The notes under the pieces: generated by a model
What the model was told of the DNA's origin: nothing
Database searches by the model: none
Seen by the model: only the letters and a program-made list of their open reading frames with translations
Translations under genes and position numbers: made by a program
Shown: in pieces, positions 13,166 to 20,003 of the stretch
Layout: every line of letters begins with the position of its first letter
Numbering within the stretch: position 1 is the stretch's first letter
NCBI GenBank assembly: GCA_020349245.1
Contig: CP070764.1
Coordinates: 1,757,202-1,793,824, forward strand
From: Chloroflexota bacterium
Lineage (GTDB): Bacteria > Chloroflexota > Anaerolineae > Anaerolineales > UBA4823
DNA: 36,623 nucleotides
Reading direction: 5' to 3'

Positions 13166-13331
13166 CTGTTCCAACAGGGTATCATGATGAGAAATATCTC
13201 ATTAGAGCCGCATGTCTGTGGATAGTAGATTGGGATCAGAATCCAGCATGTGTCTTATTATCATTGATTGGTGCCGTATTGTATAAATATGTAACAAAAC
13301 TTGAAATCCAACGTTCATAAGGGTGGAGGAT

Positions 13332-13883
13332 ATGCCTGATTGGCAGCACTCCGAAGATAGTGAGTTAATAAAAATTGCTCAGGAAGGTGAATCAGAAGCC
13401 TTTGGCGAGCTTTATCAGCGTTATGCTCAGATAGTATTCAGATTTATCTATGCGAACCTGAATAACCGCCTGGATGCTGAGGATCTGACGGAAGAGGTTT
13501 TCTTAAGAGCTTGGCGATCACTATCAAATTACCGGCAAAAAGGAGTTCCGTTCCTCGCCTATCTATTTAAAATCGCTCGCAATGTGTTAATCGATTTCTA
13601 TCGGCGAGCCGGGCGGTCCGGGGGGCACATGTCCATAGAAGAAAAACAGATTACAGATTTTAATCCTGATCCTAGTGAAACTGCGATTCTAAATATTGAA
13701 CACCAGGAAGTACGGCAAACGCTTACCCAACTGCGTGAAGATTACCGGACTGTTTTAGTGCTCCGATTCTTGAGTGGATTATCTCCCGAAGAGACGGGGC
13801 AGGTCATGGGAAGGACTCCTGGTGCGGTCAGGATTTTGCAGCATCGTGCATTATCCGCATTACGTGGTTTATTGGAAATCTAG
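13332..13883 (+). CDS. ECF-type RNA polymerase sigma factor
   Basis: 183 residues. Region 2 spans about residues 8-95, with 'EAFGELYQRYAQIVFRFI' and 'AEDLTEEVFLRAWRSL' (the DAED-like core-binding helix). Region 4 spans about 120-180, with 'LREDYRTVLVLRFLSGLSPEETGQVMGRTPGAVRILQHRAL', a helix-turn-helix for the -35 element. There is no region 1.1 or region 3. Start choice is uncertain: ATG 13332 has GGAGG only two bases away, while a GTG at 13323 would add three residues. The next gene starts 32 bases later and looks like its membrane-anchored partner, the usual sigma/anti-sigma layout. Targets are unknown; the surface-protein genes downstream are candidates. Confidence 0.9.
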   Translation: MPDWQHSEDSELIKIAQEGESEAFGELYQRYAQIVFRFIYANLNNRLDAEDLTEEVFLRAWRSLSNYRQKGVPFLAYLFKIARNVLIDFYRRAGRSGGHMSIEEKQITDFNPDPSETAILNIEHQEVRQTLTQLREDYRTVLVLRFLSGLSPEETGQVMGRTPGAVRILQHRALSALRGLLEI

Positions 13884-13915: not shown

Positions 13916-15103
13916 ATGATAGGAAAATCAACTCGAAACCAAGATGAATTAAGCAGGATATTAGATGCCTGCCTCGGGTTGATCGCTGATGGTTCTGGAA
14001 CTGTCGATACGGTCATCGAACAATACCCAGAGTACAGTGAGGAACTGAGACCTGCGTTGGAGGCGGCTGAGTGGCTGCAAGCCCGCAGCGAAGTATTTAA
14101 TCCCCGGCCTGGGTTTATTCAGCTCTCCCAGCGTCGGCTGGTAAATCGATTTCGCTCAAATATGAGCAAGCCGGCAGCAGACCACACAGAAACCATGAGC
14201 AGGATCCCTGCATTCTTCCAAGATAGAAGGATGGTAGTCCAATATTCGGCGCTGCTGACTCTCACCGCAGTTTTGCTCTTCATCGGATACCGCAGTACAA
14301 TATTTCTCATCCAGCGGAGTATTCCAGGTGATCCACTATATGCAACCAAATTAGCACAAGAGGAGATGACGGTTTCGTTGACCTCTACTGAGTCAAAGAA
14401 GGCTCGGTTGAGAATTGAATTTGCTCAGAGAAGAGTGATCGAAATGCAGGAATTGATTCTGGTCGGTCGTGATTCATTTGTCAATCAGACTTTTGAAAAC
14501 TTCAAATTTCAAATGGCCGAGGCTGCATCAGGCATTATGAGTGTTGCTAAAGTTGATCAAAGCGACGCGGCAATCCTGTCCTCATTATTTGAGGAAACTT
14601 TACGGGTCCCTGTGAAAAATCTGGCTGGGTTGCTTGATACAACCAAAGTATTAGCCTCCGTGGAGTTCGTAGAAACCGTAGAAACCTTGACCGCCGGGAT
14701 ATTCGAATTGCCACCTTTTGAAACGATTCTGGTTTTGGCGACCTCATCACCTACAAATGCATTGCTCACTGATTTCATTCCTACCAGCACCACCACCCCA
14801 ACTTTTACTGCGACTGTATACCTGCAGATTGAGACAGCTGAACCGGAGCAAGAAAGCACCACTATCCCCAGCACGAATACCCCCACTGCAACCAAATCGC
14901 CGACCGCGAAGGCGGCTCCAGCAAACACTCCAATACCATCTCAAACCCCGGTGCCAACCGCGACGAAGTCAAATACGCCAACGAGTGCGCCGACGATAAC
15001 GGTTTCACCTGAACCGACGAGTACACCTGAACCAACGCAAGATAAAACAAAGAAACCAAAACCTACCAATCACCCAACCTACTGGCCGACCTCCACCCCT
15101 TGA
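13916..15103 (+). CDS. Putative membrane-bound anti-sigma protein (DUF5667-like) with Thr/Pro-rich tail
   Basis: 395 residues. The cytoplasmic N-terminus (about 1-95) has 'RILDACLGLIADGSGTVDTVIEQYPEYSEELRPALEAAEWL', a helical pattern I associate with anti-sigma-like proteins of this phylum. One membrane helix lies near residues 105-125. Outside it 'SIPGDPLYATKLAQEE' begins a helical domain I recognise as DUF5667-like. From about residue 285 the sequence is a low-complexity Thr/Pro/Ser tail (TPTATKSPTA and similar), probably a wall-spanning and perhaps glycosylated stalk. It directly follows the ECF sigma gene and precedes a terminator, so sigma and partner form one unit. The anti-sigma role is inferred from position and topology. 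Confidence 0.78.
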   Translation: MIGKSTRNQDELSRILDACLGLIADGSGTVDTVIEQYPEYSEELRPALEAAEWLQARSEVFNPRPGFIQLSQRRLVNRFRSNMSKPAADHTETMSRIPAFFQDRRMVVQYSALLTLTAVLLFIGYRSTIFLIQRSIPGDPLYATKLAQEEMTVSLTSTESKKARLRIEFAQRRVIEMQELILVGRDSFVNQTFENFKFQMAEAASGIMSVAKVDQSDAAILSSLFEETLRVPVKNLAGLLDTTKVLASVEFVETVETLTAGIFELPPFETILVLATSSPTNALLTDFIPTSTTTPTFTATVYLQIETAEPEQESTTIPSTNTPTATKSPTAKAAPANTPIPSQTPVPTATKSNTPTSAPTITVSPEPTSTPEPTQDKTKKPKPTNHPTYWPTSTP

Positions 15104-15175: not shown

Positions 15176-15412
15176 CATAATATTTCCTGATTTCATCCGT
15201 AATAAGCAAATTTCCCCCCTCGGATTCTATTTTTGAAGCGGGTGAGAATTTCAACCCGAAGGTTACCCCACTTATGAAAAATATTTTGCAAAAAATTGTT
15301 CGTTTGCAATGTTGTAAGGTAACAATTTGGTTATGAAATCGTTGATTATTAGTAGATACAATACGACTGATGATATCCCATTAGTTCTCTATAAATCTAG
15401 CGGAAGGAGACT
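15176..15412. other. Upstream region of the Tad/Calx-beta operon
   Basis: With the preceding 72 bases (tail of the anti-sigma transcript and its terminator), this makes a gap of just over 300 bases without a gene. It is AT-rich. TACAAT at about 15357-15362 could be a -10, but no matching -35 is clear, so an alternative sigma factor could be used. Confidence 0.4.
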
Positions 15413-17968
15413 ATGGAGCTACCTATATTTAATAAATTTACCCAAAAACCAAAGGCACAGGGAATCGTGGAGTTTGCCCTGACCTTGCCCTTGTTGCTTA
15501 TTTTAGTGTTCGGGATCATAGAAGCTGGCCGCTTATTATTCATCTACAGCGCGGTACTTTCATCCAGCAGGGAAGCCGCGAGGTATGGGTCAGCTGCCGG
15601 AGAAATCACTGGCTATGTGCCATACTACAGCGACTGCAACGGCATCCGGGCAGCAGCAATGCGTATCGGAAGGTTTGCTGGTGTATCTTCGACAGATGTC
15701 TCAATTTCATATGATCACGGTCCAGGAAGCAGTACAAATTTTGCGATATGTCCTTTGGGAAGTAATGACCATATCAATTTGGGTGACAGGATCACTGTCC
15801 AAGTTGTATCCACCTTTAAGCCCTTGCTGCCTCTTGTCAAATTCCGACCTGTTCCAATCTCCGCGGTAACAAGGAGGACGATTATCAAGGATGTGGCAAT
15901 CCAAGGGACACCGCCCTCACCGGTGACACCGACAATATCCTTCGTGACTGCTAATCAAACAGCTGATGAAGGAGCTGGCAAAATCAAGGTGATGGTGCAA
16001 CTTACTGCAGCAATTGATAAAACAGTAACCGTACCTTATAGCTTGACTGGTACAGCCCAGAATTTGGTGGATTACTCTGTTTCGCCTAACCCAGTCGTTC
16101 TGCTGCCAGGGGACACGGTTGGTGAAATTCAGATTACGATAAACGATGATGATATCGATGAAGATGATGAAACTGCAGTGCTGGTGATGGGCACACCGAC
16201 AAATGCGATCAAGGGTACCCCCTTTGCTCACGTGGCGACCATCAAAGACAATGATAATCCCCCTGTGGTTTCATTTATTTTAGCTGATCAATCACATCCC
16301 GAGAGCATGGATGGTTTAGCAATGCTGGTTCTCAGCAATCCATCCAGCAGGGATATCACTGTGAATTACAGCGTCGGTGGTGATGCGCAAGCTGGCTATG
16401 ATTACTCACTCACTGCCAGCCCGATCACAATTCCAGCCCTGGATGTGACCTTTCCAATTGTTTTAGATATCTACGATGACTTAATCGATGAAGTGGATGA
16501 AACCGTCATATTGACACTTGGAGATATCACCAACGGGACCAGAGGGTCCCCGGATGTACACATCTATACCATCGAAGACGATGATGAACCGCCAGAGGTC
16601 TTTTTCACCTGGGAAAAACAAAGCGGTGATGAAACTGTCGGTACGATGACGGTTGAATTTCAACTCAGCATTGAATCGAGTTTGGATATTACCGTGCCTT
16701 TTAACCTCGGTGGAACTGCTGCAAGAGATGCAGATTATAAGATTGACACAACACCCGTTTTCATTCCTGCAGGAGAATTGACCGGATCTGTTGTAATCAC
16801 TGTTATCCCAGATGGGGATAATACTGAAGGGGATGAAACAATCACTGTGATGATACAGAACCCGGTGAACGCCCGCCGTGGAAATCCTTTCAAGCATACA
16901 GCGACAATCACCTCGGAAGCCATGGAGCCGAATGTCCATTTCGCATCAGCTAACCAACGCAGCGATGATAGCTCAGATGGACGAGTTGAGGTAAAAGTCC
17001 TGCTGAGCGCAGCATGGAGTGCAGATGTTACTGTTCCCTTAACTTTTGCGGGTACAGCAACCAAAGACCAGGATTACACGGTGAGCGCTGAGAGTGTTGT
17101 GATTCCAGCAGGGGGGGCTAGTGCAAGTATATTTGTGAAATTCTATGATGATGCGATTGATGAATTCGATGAAACGATAGAGATTATCATGGGACAACCC
17201 ATAAATGCCACCAAGGGGAGTCCCAGTGTTCATATCATAACCATCCCAGACAACGACCCTGAATCAATCCTTTCGTTTGTGACGAATGGTCAGATAGTCG
17301 AGGAAGATGCCGGCATCGTCACAATCACGGCCCAATTGAATGTAATCTCGGGAAAGGATATCACTGCTCCATTTATCGTTCTCGGTGCAGCAGAAGCCGG
17401 GGTGGATAAAGACTATACAATTTCAGCCAGTCCGTTATTCATTCCAGCCGGCTCCAGCTCGGCGGATATCCAGCTGCAGGTGAACGATGATAAGTTAATC
17501 GAACTGACTGAAGATGTCGTGATTATCCTGGATGTTCCGGTTAATGCCACCTTGGGATCACCCGCGACCCATACTCTAAAGATTGAAGATAATGAACCAA
17601 ATTGTCCAACACCAACTGGTTTACCAGTATTTGGTGCAAATGCAACCGGAAATCTGCTGACCTGGAACCTTAAGACTCCAAATCCGATCGTACCGGTCAA
17701 ATTGGTTCAAGTAACCGTGCATTGGCCCGTTGGATCAACTGCGAATATTTCGGGGATTACATTTGGCAGCACAATCTATGCTGGGAATTCTACCCCACCA
17801 TACCTGGCGGTGAACACCCCATATCCCTTATGGAGCGGCGCTTTTGATGCCCGGCAAATGGTTTTTGCGTTCGACCGCACGCCGAAAAGTGTAGCAGGTG
17901 ATTTTTACCAGGTGATCGCGAAATTCGAGAATTGTGAACCAGTCAGTGGGATTATTCCCAGCGAGTAA
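15413..17968 (+). CDS. TadE-like minor pilin fused to five Calx-beta repeats
   Basis: 851 residues. The N-terminus is TadE-like: QGIVEFALTLPLLLILVFGIIEAGRLLF (residues about 17-44), with the Glu and hydrophobic helix seen in TadE/TadF pseudopilins, then SSSREAARYGS. From about residue 173 five Calx-beta repeats of roughly 110 residues follow, starting near 174, 283, 392, 505 and 619. Each ends in an acidic, Ca-binding style motif such as DDIDEDDET or DDAIDEFDET, then 'NAxxGxPxxH' and 'DND'. A final domain of about 120 residues ('VTVHWPVGS') is unassigned. The start has GGAAGGAG close upstream. TadE proteins are normally only 150-250 residues, so this is a large Ca-dependent surface extension. 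Two further Tad-like genes follow in the same operon. Confidence 0.88.
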   Translation: MELPIFNKFTQKPKAQGIVEFALTLPLLLILVFGIIEAGRLLFIYSAVLSSSREAARYGSAAGEITGYVPYYSDCNGIRAAAMRIGRFAGVSSTDVSISYDHGPGSSTNFAICPLGSNDHINLGDRITVQVVSTFKPLLPLVKFRPVPISAVTRRTIIKDVAIQGTPPSPVTPTISFVTANQTADEGAGKIKVMVQLTAAIDKTVTVPYSLTGTAQNLVDYSVSPNPVVLLPGDTVGEIQITINDDDIDEDDETAVLVMGTPTNAIKGTPFAHVATIKDNDNPPVVSFILADQSHPESMDGLAMLVLSNPSSRDITVNYSVGGDAQAGYDYSLTASPITIPALDVTFPIVLDIYDDLIDEVDETVILTLGDITNGTRGSPDVHIYTIEDDDEPPEVFFTWEKQSGDETVGTMTVEFQLSIESSLDITVPFNLGGTAARDADYKIDTTPVFIPAGELTGSVVITVIPDGDNTEGDETITVMIQNPVNARRGNPFKHTATITSEAMEPNVHFASANQRSDDSSDGRVEVKVLLSAAWSADVTVPLTFAGTATKDQDYTVSAESVVIPAGGASASIFVKFYDDAIDEFDETIEIIMGQPINATKGSPSVHIITIPDNDPESILSFVTNGQIVEEDAGIVTITAQLNVISGKDITAPFIVLGAAEAGVDKDYTISASPLFIPAGSSSADIQLQVNDDKLIELTEDVVIILDVPVNATLGSPATHTLKIEDNEPNCPTPTGLPVFGANATGNLLTWNLKTPNPIVPVKLVQVTVHWPVGSTANISGITFGSTIYAGNSTPPYLAVNTPYPLWSGAFDARQMVFAFDRTPKSVAGDFYQVIAKFENCEPVSGIIPSE

Positions 17969-17972
17969 GTTT

Positions 17973-18431
17973 ATGTGTGAATTTATGGACACTTCTATGC
18001 ATGGAAAGACCGACAAATCTGGGAGGAGACCTGAACGCGGGCAGAGTCTGGTAGAAATGGCCATGGCACTCTTTATCCTTTTGCTTCTGGTAGGTGGCAT
18101 CGTGGATATCGGTAGAGCTTTCTTCACCTATATGGCCCTGCGCGATTCTGTCCAGGAAGGTGCGCTTTACGGCTCGATCAACCCGACCCAGACTCAAGCG
18201 ATCCGCAACCATGTGTTGGGTAGCTCAGATATGATCCCGGATTTGATCGGCAGTGATGATATCACGGTCGAAGTCATTGGTGCTCCGTGCACTGGAAACA
18301 GCATCCGGGTCAGCGCCCAATATAGTGATTTCCCCATCACAATGCCATTCATCGGTACAGTGATAGGCAGCCAGACTGTAAGCATCACGGCCAGTGTAAC
18401 GGACACCATATTGAGTCCGGGGTGTAACTAA
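17973..18431 (+). CDS. TadE-like pseudopilin
   Basis: About 152 residues. After a short polar leader it has RGQSLVEMAMALFILLLLVGGIVDIGRAFFTY, the TadE/TadF N-terminal helix with the conserved Glu, followed by 'LRDSVQEGALYGS'. The rest is a small soluble domain. It begins five bases after the stop of the Calx-beta fusion. Other in-frame ATGs (17985, 17997) are possible, since none has a convincing Shine-Dalgarno, and the protein may be expressed by coupling. TadE-type proteins are minor pilins of Tad/Flp systems; no TadA ATPase, secretin or prepilin peptidase is in this window. Confidence 0.85.
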   Translation: MCEFMDTSMHGKTDKSGRRPERGQSLVEMAMALFILLLLVGGIVDIGRAFFTYMALRDSVQEGALYGSINPTQTQAIRNHVLGSSDMIPDLIGSDDITVEVIGAPCTGNSIRVSAQYSDFPITMPFIGTVIGSQTVSITASVTDTILSPGCN

Positions 18432-18459
18432 AAATTTTGCAATTGCGTGGAGACAATGA

Positions 18460-19806
18460 ATGATCAGGAAATTCATTAACACGGAAAAAGGACAGACCTC
18501 AGTTCTGCTCGCTTTGGCTTTTATTGGGCTGCTGGGATTTACTGCTTTGGCAGTGGATGGCGGCATGGTGTATGCCAATCGGCGTCACATGCAAAATGCT
18601 GCCGATGCAGCCTCACTGGCAGGTGGAAGTGCCGCAGCGCTTTACCTGGAGAATCACTATGTTATCTACCGGGATTGGAGTTGCTCCGACCTGAGAGTGA
18701 TCAGGGCGATGTCGAACAGCACAAACGGGGCCGAGATAATCGCAGTAAATAGTGCCTTAACAAATGATTACTCATTGGATTATGACATCTCCGATAAGCA
18801 CGGTGTTGATGCAAAATGTGTTCAGGGCGCTAGCAATGGCAGCTGGATAGAACGATACATTGATGTCAAGACATATATTACTGCAGATACGCCGACAGCC
18901 TTTGCCCATTTTGTCTATTCTGGCCCTTTACGCAACACGGTCGAGGCAGTTGCGCGAGTATTTCCCAGGGTTCCCCTGGCATACGGCAATGCGATTGTGG
19001 CTTTAGCCAAAGATTGTGACTTGGGTGGTATAGAATTCGATGGTTCTAATGTGGTTTCAGTTACAGGTGGGGGAATATTCTCCAATTCCTGTATTGATAC
19101 CCGTGGTGGTGTCAGTGTGAATGTCTATGGAACCAGTGATGACAACATCTCTTGTGTGCTTCCAGATTGCTATGATGACCACGGCAGCACCGGTGTAGTT
19201 TCACCAGCCCCAATTGAAAATACAGGTGTCCCCCTGCCTCCCGAAACATATCATGTGCCACCGCCTGATTGCACCGTTCTACCATACCGTGGTAACTATA
19301 ATGGCGATGGAAAGATTGAATACGGGCGCTACGACACCATCCGTATTCAAAATGGGGATCATAAATTTGATCCTGGCTTATTTTGCGTGACAGGAGACGT
19401 GGAAATAAATGGCGGCATCGTCGCCGGATCCGATGTGACCTTCTACGTTGTGAATGGAGATTTTCATACCAGCGGGAATGCAACATCGAGTATCATCGCC
19501 CCTCCCGCCAATAATTGTGGTCCACCGTGTGATACTTTTTTTGCCATGCCAGGTGTCCTGGTATACCTATCTCCAGGCAATACAAATGAAGTCACCCTGC
19601 TGGGGACTGAAGATTCCGTTTTTCGCGGCTTGGTATATGCACCGAGTGGAACCATCCAGGCCGGTGGTACCAGTTCATTGATGAGAGAAATTTATACCCA
19701 ATTAATAGGAAACGATGTGAAAGTTCACGGGAATACCAATGTTGTCGTTACATTCAATGACAAGCTGGTTTATCAAATACCAGCGAGGCTTGAATTGAAT
19801 AAGTAA
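18460..19806 (+). CDS. TadG-like (Tad domain) surface protein
   Basis: 448 residues. The N-terminus KGQTSVLLALAFIGLLGFTALAVDGGMVYANRRHMQNAADAASLAGG is the classic TadG/Tad-domain start: a hydrophobic helix, then the VDGG and QNAADAASLAGG motifs. The remaining 390 residues are extracellular, rich in Gly, Asn and beta-forming stretches, with several Cys pairs (for example CVLPDC, CGPPC). GGAG precedes the ATG by five bases. It is the last gene of the operon, before the terminator at 19842. TadG proteins are anchored pilus-associated or adhesion proteins in Tad systems; the exact role here is unknown. Confidence 0.88.
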   Translation: MIRKFINTEKGQTSVLLALAFIGLLGFTALAVDGGMVYANRRHMQNAADAASLAGGSAAALYLENHYVIYRDWSCSDLRVIRAMSNSTNGAEIIAVNSALTNDYSLDYDISDKHGVDAKCVQGASNGSWIERYIDVKTYITADTPTAFAHFVYSGPLRNTVEAVARVFPRVPLAYGNAIVALAKDCDLGGIEFDGSNVVSVTGGGIFSNSCIDTRGGVSVNVYGTSDDNISCVLPDCYDDHGSTGVVSPAPIENTGVPLPPETYHVPPPDCTVLPYRGNYNGDGKIEYGRYDTIRIQNGDHKFDPGLFCVTGDVEINGGIVAGSDVTFYVVNGDFHTSGNATSSIIAPPANNCGPPCDTFFAMPGVLVYLSPGNTNEVTLLGTEDSVFRGLVYAPSGTIQAGGTSSLMREIYTQLIGNDVKVHGNTNVVVTFNDKLVYQIPARLELNK

Positions 19807-19892: not shown

Positions 19893-20003
19893 TGACCGGG
19901 CAGGCAACCCGGCGGCGCCCGGAGGGACCTACTTACCGCTGCTTCCTCTCGGACCTGACGGGGTTCACAGGTTTCCGCCGCGCCGGACCCACCCGGCTAC
20001 TCG
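19893..20003 (-). ncRNA. ffs: Signal recognition particle RNA (4.5S-like, small bacterial type)
   Basis: The minus strand contains the conserved SRP domain IV core, GTCAGGTCCGAGAGGAAGCA within 19936-19962, including the GGAAGCAGC segment that binds Ffh. Flanking GC-rich arms pair over most of the length (about 19895-19920 with 19975-19998), forming the long hairpin of small bacterial SRP RNAs. Ends are approximate: the 5' end is set from the promoter at 20010-20038, and the 3' end from loss of pairing. SRP RNA with Ffh delivers nascent membrane and secreted proteins to the translocon. This small form lacks the Alu domain of Bacillus SRP RNA. Confidence 0.93.

Follow-up and report, generated by a model that had tools for sequence, protein, structure and literature searches.

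A conserved TadE-type pilin with an exchangeable Calx-beta stalk, a candidate Tad pilus tip protein of Anaerolineales

Results

Genes at the locus

The window analyzed here is a 36,623-nucleotide stretch (C1:1757202-1793824) of a Chloroflexota genome assembled as a single contig of 4.5 Mb, 92.7% complete and 5.4% contaminated; its congeners are Chloroflexota/Anaerolineales MAGs. An operon of three TadE/F/G-type minor pilins occupies positions 15413-19806 and is preceded by genes for an ECF sigma factor and a DUF5667 membrane protein (Table 1). The first pilin gene encodes an 851-aa protein and has a good ribosome-binding site upstream (GGAAGGAG). Full-length orthologues with the same layout occur within the genus at 68-69% identity, along with a contig-truncated orthologue at 82%. 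The second gene, for a small TadE/TadF-like pilin with the cleavage motif RGQSLVEM, starts four nucleotides past the stop of the first, and the third, for a TadG-like pilin, has a downstream counterpart in 45 of 50 testable relatives. A genome-wide search for TadE-domain proteins returned only two, both in this operon, with no second copies. The next feature past the TadG-like gene is a small bacterial SRP RNA gene (19895-19994), which is encoded on the minus strand.

Table 1. Features of the pilin locus (window coordinates unless a relative's locus is named)
Feature	Position	Strand	Basis or remark
BldN-type ECF promoter motif GTAAC-N16-CGTT	13291..13315	+	32 nt before ECF sigma ORF
ECF sigma factor, BldN-like subfamily	13323..13883	+	Pfam Sigma70_r2/r4_2; TIGR02952
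DUF5667 membrane protein, putative anti-sigma partner	13916..15103	+	PF18915, E 1.2e-13
BldN-type promoter motif GTAAC-N16-CGTT	15319..15343	+	94 nt before pilin gene
Modular TadE minor pilin, whole gene	15413..17968	+	851 aa, single open frame
Leader, residues 1-15	15413..15457	+	Sequence; predicted prepilin cleavage A15/Q16, E20 = +5
TadE N-terminal pilin helix, residues 16-60	15458..15592	+	Pfam TadE, AlphaFold2 helix
Pilin head, residues 61-165, conserved C75/C113	15593..15907	+	Alignment, AlphaFold2
Calx-beta repeat 1, residues 173-284	15929..16264	+	Ca-ligand positions acidic 8/8
Calx-beta repeat 2, residues 284-394	16262..16594	+	Ca-ligand positions acidic 8/8
Calx-beta repeat 3, residues 394-506	16592..16930	+	Ca-ligand positions acidic 5/8
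Calx-beta repeat 4, residues 506-617	16928..17263	+	Ca-ligand positions acidic 8/8
Calx-beta repeat 5, residues 618-730	17264..17602	+	Ca-ligand positions acidic 8/8
C-terminal domain, residues 731-851	17603..17965	+	Ig-like beta sandwich, invariant Cys pair C731/C841
Small TadE/TadF-like minor pilin	17973..18431	+	About 152 aa from ATG 17973; Pfam TadE E 8.3e-11, N_methyl 2.2e-4
TadG-like minor pilin (Tad domain + DUF7305)	18460..19806	+	Pfam Tad E 8.1e-12; DUF7305 1.5e-5, just under its cut-off
NIDO-protein loci in relatives	L042:12768-15179, L047:7749-10166, L049:11619-13982		

A complete TadE pilin carrying an extension

The 851-aa protein consists of a TadE helix, a pilin-type head, five Calx-beta domains, and a C-terminal domain. 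An AlphaFold2 model built from 29 sequences had a mean pLDDT of 89.3, with a helix at residues 16-60, a head to about residue 156, the repeats at 173-730, and a C-terminal beta domain; its global pTM was only 0.43, which makes the relative placement of the domains unreliable. The Calx-beta part has a net charge of -67, against +5 for the head and 0 for the C-terminal domain. A preliminary description, made from the letters alone, had recognized a TadE-type N-terminal helix, five acidic Calx-beta repeats, and an unassigned C-terminal domain, and all of these held up under domain searches and structure prediction. It had also placed the repeats where a small head would be, and in this it was mistaken, since a complete pilin-type head occupies residues 61-165 and relatives made of little else exist.

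Pfam TadE (PF07811) matches residues 16-57 above its cut-off (E 1.3e-12). The prepilin-type motif A15/Q16...E20 is present. Glutamate at +5 is invariant in the family, and at position -1, 47 of the 77 relatives have G and 29 have A (G or A in 76/77), a pattern consistent with prepilin cleavage at A15/Q16. The modeled head has a helix at 75-89 and strands at 96-101, 126-135, and 147-156. It is among the best-conserved parts of the family, with R57, C75, Y100, D101, C113, R126, and R155 invariant or nearly so. About 17 relatives stop at the end of the head or shortly after it, as proteins of roughly 160-200 aa, and the head is therefore a stand-alone unit. Given the conservation of the head and these head-only relatives, the 851-aa protein has a whole TadE pilin at its base and an extension beyond it; it is not a helix joined to repeats.

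The Calx-beta stalk

Pfam Calx-beta (PF03160) matches five stretches (E 5.9e-35, 120 bits against a cut-off of 27), and AlphaFold2 predicts five beta-sandwiches. In VIA-align, a modeled repeat matched NCX1 CBD1 (2dpk) with Z 16.9 and an rmsd of 1.9 A over 116 residues, and other matches were 3gin (Z 17.4) and 2qvm (Z 16.9). Single repeats aligned with the Ca-binding domains of NCX1/CALX at Z 16-17, mostly with an rmsd below 2 A, and sequence searches concurred. As modeled, the match of the repeats to NCX1 CBD1 is unambiguous.

Eight acidic Ca-ligand positions were numbered after NCX1 CBD1. Across 57 repeats of the family, each position is acidic in 38 to 55, with the failures falling mainly in third repeats and in the orthologue L075:5962-8622, a five-repeat Calx-beta protein from which most of the Ca-ligand acids are gone. 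Successive repeats follow one another almost without linker, with the D-x-D pair located at the junction, an arrangement shared with NCX CBD12. On these positions, the array probably binds Ca, and stiffening of the array by Ca is plausible. Because the L075 array has lost most of its ligands, the family can do without Ca stiffening. The protein's own repeats are 34-44% identical to one another and, compared position by position with the repeats of a congener, 61-76% identical, which points to an array that is old and stable, with no recent expansion.

The C-terminal domain

The last part of the protein, about 120 residues long, is shared by relatives with other stalks. At least two cysteines are found in 43 of 43 family members that carry the domain, and the only four cysteines of the 851-aa protein are its head pair and its C-terminal pair; both pairs are predicted to form disulfides. 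A Pfam search of the domain gave no match, and the predicted fold is Ig-like (pLDDT 90.5). Its best structural neighbors were the archaellum proteins FlaG/FlaF and an archaeal type IV pilin. Foldseek ranked the pilin first (E 6e-4, TM 0.42), and VIA-align ranked FlaG first (Z 8.5), with many unrelated Ig-like sandwiches just below. Scores of this size are shared by those sandwiches, so that no function can be read from the FlaG/FlaF or pilin matches; a specific known fold was rejected, and the domain is called Ig-like only.

A profile built from nine seeds found further members at E values to about 1e-17 before iteration and more than 40 members after it. In six-frame searches (31 relatives; 151 genomes across the phylum), the domain hardly occurred outside the order to which this genome belongs: the 151-genome search found it in 12 genomes of that order and in one more of the class. 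It occurs mostly in TadE proteins, with exceptions, and its copies are divergent (median identity, 20%). Some members with Calx-beta stalks (L046, L071, and L077) lack a recognizable C-terminal domain. A diverged copy also occurs in a 1,100-aa TadE protein (L043:14608-17907) at the same locus as an extended TadE.

Constant ends and an exchangeable middle

The head profile recovered 77 full-head members among the fetched loci. One family member, L096, belongs to Ornatilinea apprima, a culturable relative within Anaerolineae. The family, with more than 70 members, is centered on Anaerolineae and combines a constant base (helix and head) with a usually constant C-terminal domain. Between them lies nothing, a Pro/Thr linker (58-132 aa, about 60% P+T), two to six Calx-beta domains, or PKD, Big_7, InlB-type (Flg_new_2), DUF7507, CARDB, or thrombospondin-3 repeats; the Calx-beta stalk is present in 13 of 64 members. 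On a maximum-likelihood tree of the head, six stalk classes require at least 27 changes, compared with a mean of 39.8 after shuffling. The strongest switches across well-supported branches involve the Pro/Thr, "other," and head-only forms. For the Calx-beta stalk 7 changes are needed, of which well-supported branches force one, and exchange of this particular stalk is thus only weakly forced by such branches.

Sequence identities of the head co-vary with those of the C-terminal domain (Mantel r 0.58; 0 of 2,000 permutations), which indicates that the two ends travel together. The simplest reading of these alignments is that base and end domain would be the functional constants and the middle a spacer. 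We read the Calx-beta array as an interchangeable spacer, one among several, between constant ends, and not as the defining feature of the protein.

An ECF sigma factor and its promoter motif

The sigma factor encoded upstream matches the BldN family TIGR02952 at E 7.5e-44 and 149.6 bits, below the curated score of 206. The DUF5667 protein may be its anti-sigma partner. Among 58 testable family members, a sigma gene lies upstream in 20 and a DUF5667 gene in 18.

Two occurrences of GTAAC-N16-CGTT were found in the window. The extended form GTAACA-N15-CGTTG is present at a single site in the genome, ahead of the gene for the 851-aa pilin. For BldN, the motif CGTAAC-N16-CGTTGA has been published (PMC2375139), and our pattern was picked with it in mind rather than discovered blind. 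Within the upstream regions of 74 members, a spacer of 16 was present in 21, several of them near copies of one another, and spacers of 12-15 or 17-21 were never present; shuffles expect 0.08. Many relatives carry the motif before the sigma gene (30-45 nt upstream) as well as before the pilin gene. On sequence grounds, there is good support for an autoregulated ECF sigma as the driver of the tip operon; the sigma factor would bind to, and control, the pilin operon. The promoter pair, with its strict spacing of 16 nt, suggests that Tad pilins belong to an ECF regulon that is autoregulated.

A genome-wide scan for GTAACAA-N14-CGTT gave 10 sites, compared with 1 in the control, and three of these cluster near 2.2 Mb. 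One of the three precedes the sigma gene of a paralogous ECF sigma/DUF5667 pair (L184:5467-7201 in this genome, G000); the search around the cluster turned up no further Tad locus. The GTAAC-N16-CGTT motif is absent before the tad assembly operon.

Tad machinery elsewhere in the genome

Genes for Flp, CpaB/RcpC, TadZ, TadA, and TadB lie at C1:3.916-3.921 Mb, two Mb from the pilin operon. Flp is a 48-aa pilin with the motif KGQGLVEYAL. TadZ has an N-terminal receiver domain, and the genes of a two-component system, a DegS-like sensor kinase and a LuxR-type regulator, stand directly upstream of flp-cpaB-tadZ-tadA-tadB in the same operon (L038:9641-13021 in G000). We did not count as machinery a partial T2SSE fragment at C1:708 kb, which lies in a masked stretch. 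The preliminary description had suggested looking for tadA, tadZ, and a prepilin peptidase elsewhere in the genome; the first two are present, and the peptidase was not found. Neither an A24 prepilin peptidase nor TadC was detected in this 92.7% complete assembly, which is N-masked beside tadB. A prepilin peptidase is encoded in the congeners G001 and G004, as it is in 32 of the 33 good genomes of relatives. The gene that flanks it in G004 has only a partial match of 45% in this assembly, so the stretch with the peptidase is probably missing and its absence is more likely an assembly gap. In two relatives (G060 and G047), the peptidase gene is directly upstream of the extended TadE, and in a third (G056), a Calx-beta member adjoins tadC-B-A-Z-cpaB.

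In 11 of 50 testable relatives (examples in Table 1), the pilin operon also includes a gene for a secreted NIDO (nidogen-like) protein of about 800 aa, placed after the extended TadE and before the small one; this gene is absent from the present genus.

Discussion

We consider it fairly probable that the 851-aa protein is a modular Tad (type IVc) minor pilin whose Ca-stiffened rod presents a tip domain and whose expression is governed by an autoregulated ECF sigma factor. According to this model, the prepilin would be cleaved and the helix at residues 16-60 would pack into the Flp pilus. The head would join its TadF-like and TadG-like operon partners, most likely as a tip complex that enters the pilus first. 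Five near-linkerless Calx-beta domains with Ca sites at their junctions would form a Ca-stiffened rod of about 20-25 nm, the end of which would hold the conserved, disulfide-closed C-terminal domain forward, where it would touch a polymer, a surface, or another cell. The C-terminal domain may be an adhesive module. The BldN-like ECF sigma factor next door would switch the operon on and activate its own gene. The Ca-stiffened, pilin-anchored fiber envisaged in the preliminary description survives in part: the ligand positions and tad genes favor a pilin-anchored, probably Ca-binding rod, and the repeats are no longer its defining feature.

Counting against a pilus are the lack of an A24 prepilin peptidase and of TadC in the assembly and the alanine, instead of glycine, at position -1, a residue that is nevertheless common to 29 of 77 relatives. 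The peptidase result and this alanine, together with the distance between the pilin operon and the tadA operon in this genome, would also fit a membrane-anchored surface adhesin, in which the TadE helix stays uncleaved or unpolymerized and the rod extends straight from the cell with no pilus. We regard such an anchor as unlikely. An invariant glutamate at +5 and a -1 position restricted to G or A are expected under selection for cleavage, the congeners and nearly all good relative genomes encode the peptidase, and the gene sits in an operon with TadF/TadG-like pilins and, in G056, also beside assembly genes.

The pilus model assigns contact to the C-terminal domain. The Calx-beta domains could instead do the binding themselves, in a Ca-dependent manner and to glycans or matrix, leaving the C-terminal domain as a mere cap. 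Conservation of the Ca-ligand positions is in keeping with this, as is the listing of Calx-beta among the suggested adhesive domains of LapA (PMC7616799). Such a role is harder to reconcile with the replacement of the repeats by unrelated modules or Pro/Thr linkers while both ends persist, or with the ligand loss in L075, and we rate it as somewhat less likely still than a membrane anchor. The position of the NIDO gene in some operons raises the further idea of a pseudopilus in a secretion system for display or export of the nidogen-domain protein; this is very improbable, as the gene is missing in this genus and at most loci and the machinery is tad-type with an Flp major pilin. A misassembly or frame error joining two genes is ruled out for practical purposes by the single open frame and because full-length orthologues with the same layout are intact in independent genomes of the genus.

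The fusion is real and conserved and is a variation on the known modular-pilin theme. Herrou et al. 2025 (PMC12075869) proposed that Tad pili bear customized, variable tips and that TadG-type pilins carry them. Like the operon described here, Kil/TadEFG tip complexes comprise three TadE/F/G-type minor pilins per operon, one of them with an extra C-terminal module, and variable domains are proposed at the pilus tip there as well (PMC12075869). In Kil, however, the module is on the large TadG/KilN, whereas here it is on the first TadE and is carried by an exchangeable multidomain stalk. The present system, known from its sequence and a single-protein model, differs from Kil/TadEFG in its conserved end domain as well.

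More broadly, type IV pilins with grafted modules represent a widespread evolutionary strategy with many architectures (PMC8179133). In PilB/PilC of Streptococcus sanguinis, a functional module is likewise grafted onto a small pilin module; those proteins are N_methyl (IPR012902) type IV pilins with lectin or vWA modules (PMC8179133), in contrast to a Tad/TadE pilin with a long stalk of repeats and an unassigned end domain. A Pfam search of the 851-aa protein gave no N_methyl match at E<=1. The protein works like a modular pilin yet lies outside the published set, which was collected by IPR012902/N_methyl.

Its repeats share the Calx-beta fold with large bacterial adhesins such as LapA and with the NCX1/CALX CBDs (Z about 17 to NCX1 CBD1/CBD2). 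They also share the Ca-ligand positions of the NCX1 CBD, as predicted sites, and differ from the NCX1/CALX domains in forming an extracellular five-domain rod on a pilin. The sigma factor resembles BldN (PMC2375139) in its promoter spacing, its near-identical hexamers, and its sequence relationship. It differs in its Chloroflexota host, Tad pilin operon target, DUF5667 partner, and score below the BldN equivalog cut-off.

Our literature search found no publication joining TadE with Calx-beta and none joining TadE-like, Chloroflexota, and pilus. Pili consistent with Tad pili have been observed in another member of the phylum, Litorilinea aerophila, and the adhesion module of the Tad pilus was listed as undefined in a recent review (PMC7616799). 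We propose, at about even confidence, that Anaerolineales possess a Tad pilus tip system in which a constant base and a nearly order-restricted end domain flank a stalk that has been exchanged repeatedly to tune reach and stiffness, with its own autoregulated BldN-like ECF sigma factor.

The idea of TadE/F/G pilins as adaptable tips is recent, and the same base and cap with swapped rods shows how simple pili can be re-tooled. To this the family adds a new, conserved end domain. It also offers, for a phylum (Chloroflexota) with little-known surface structures, a clean promoter code that connects Tad pilins with an ECF sigma factor. As a natural series that varies only in its spacer, the family makes the reach, stiffness, and Ca dependence of a displayed domain testable, with L075 as a natural Ca-poor version of the stalk.
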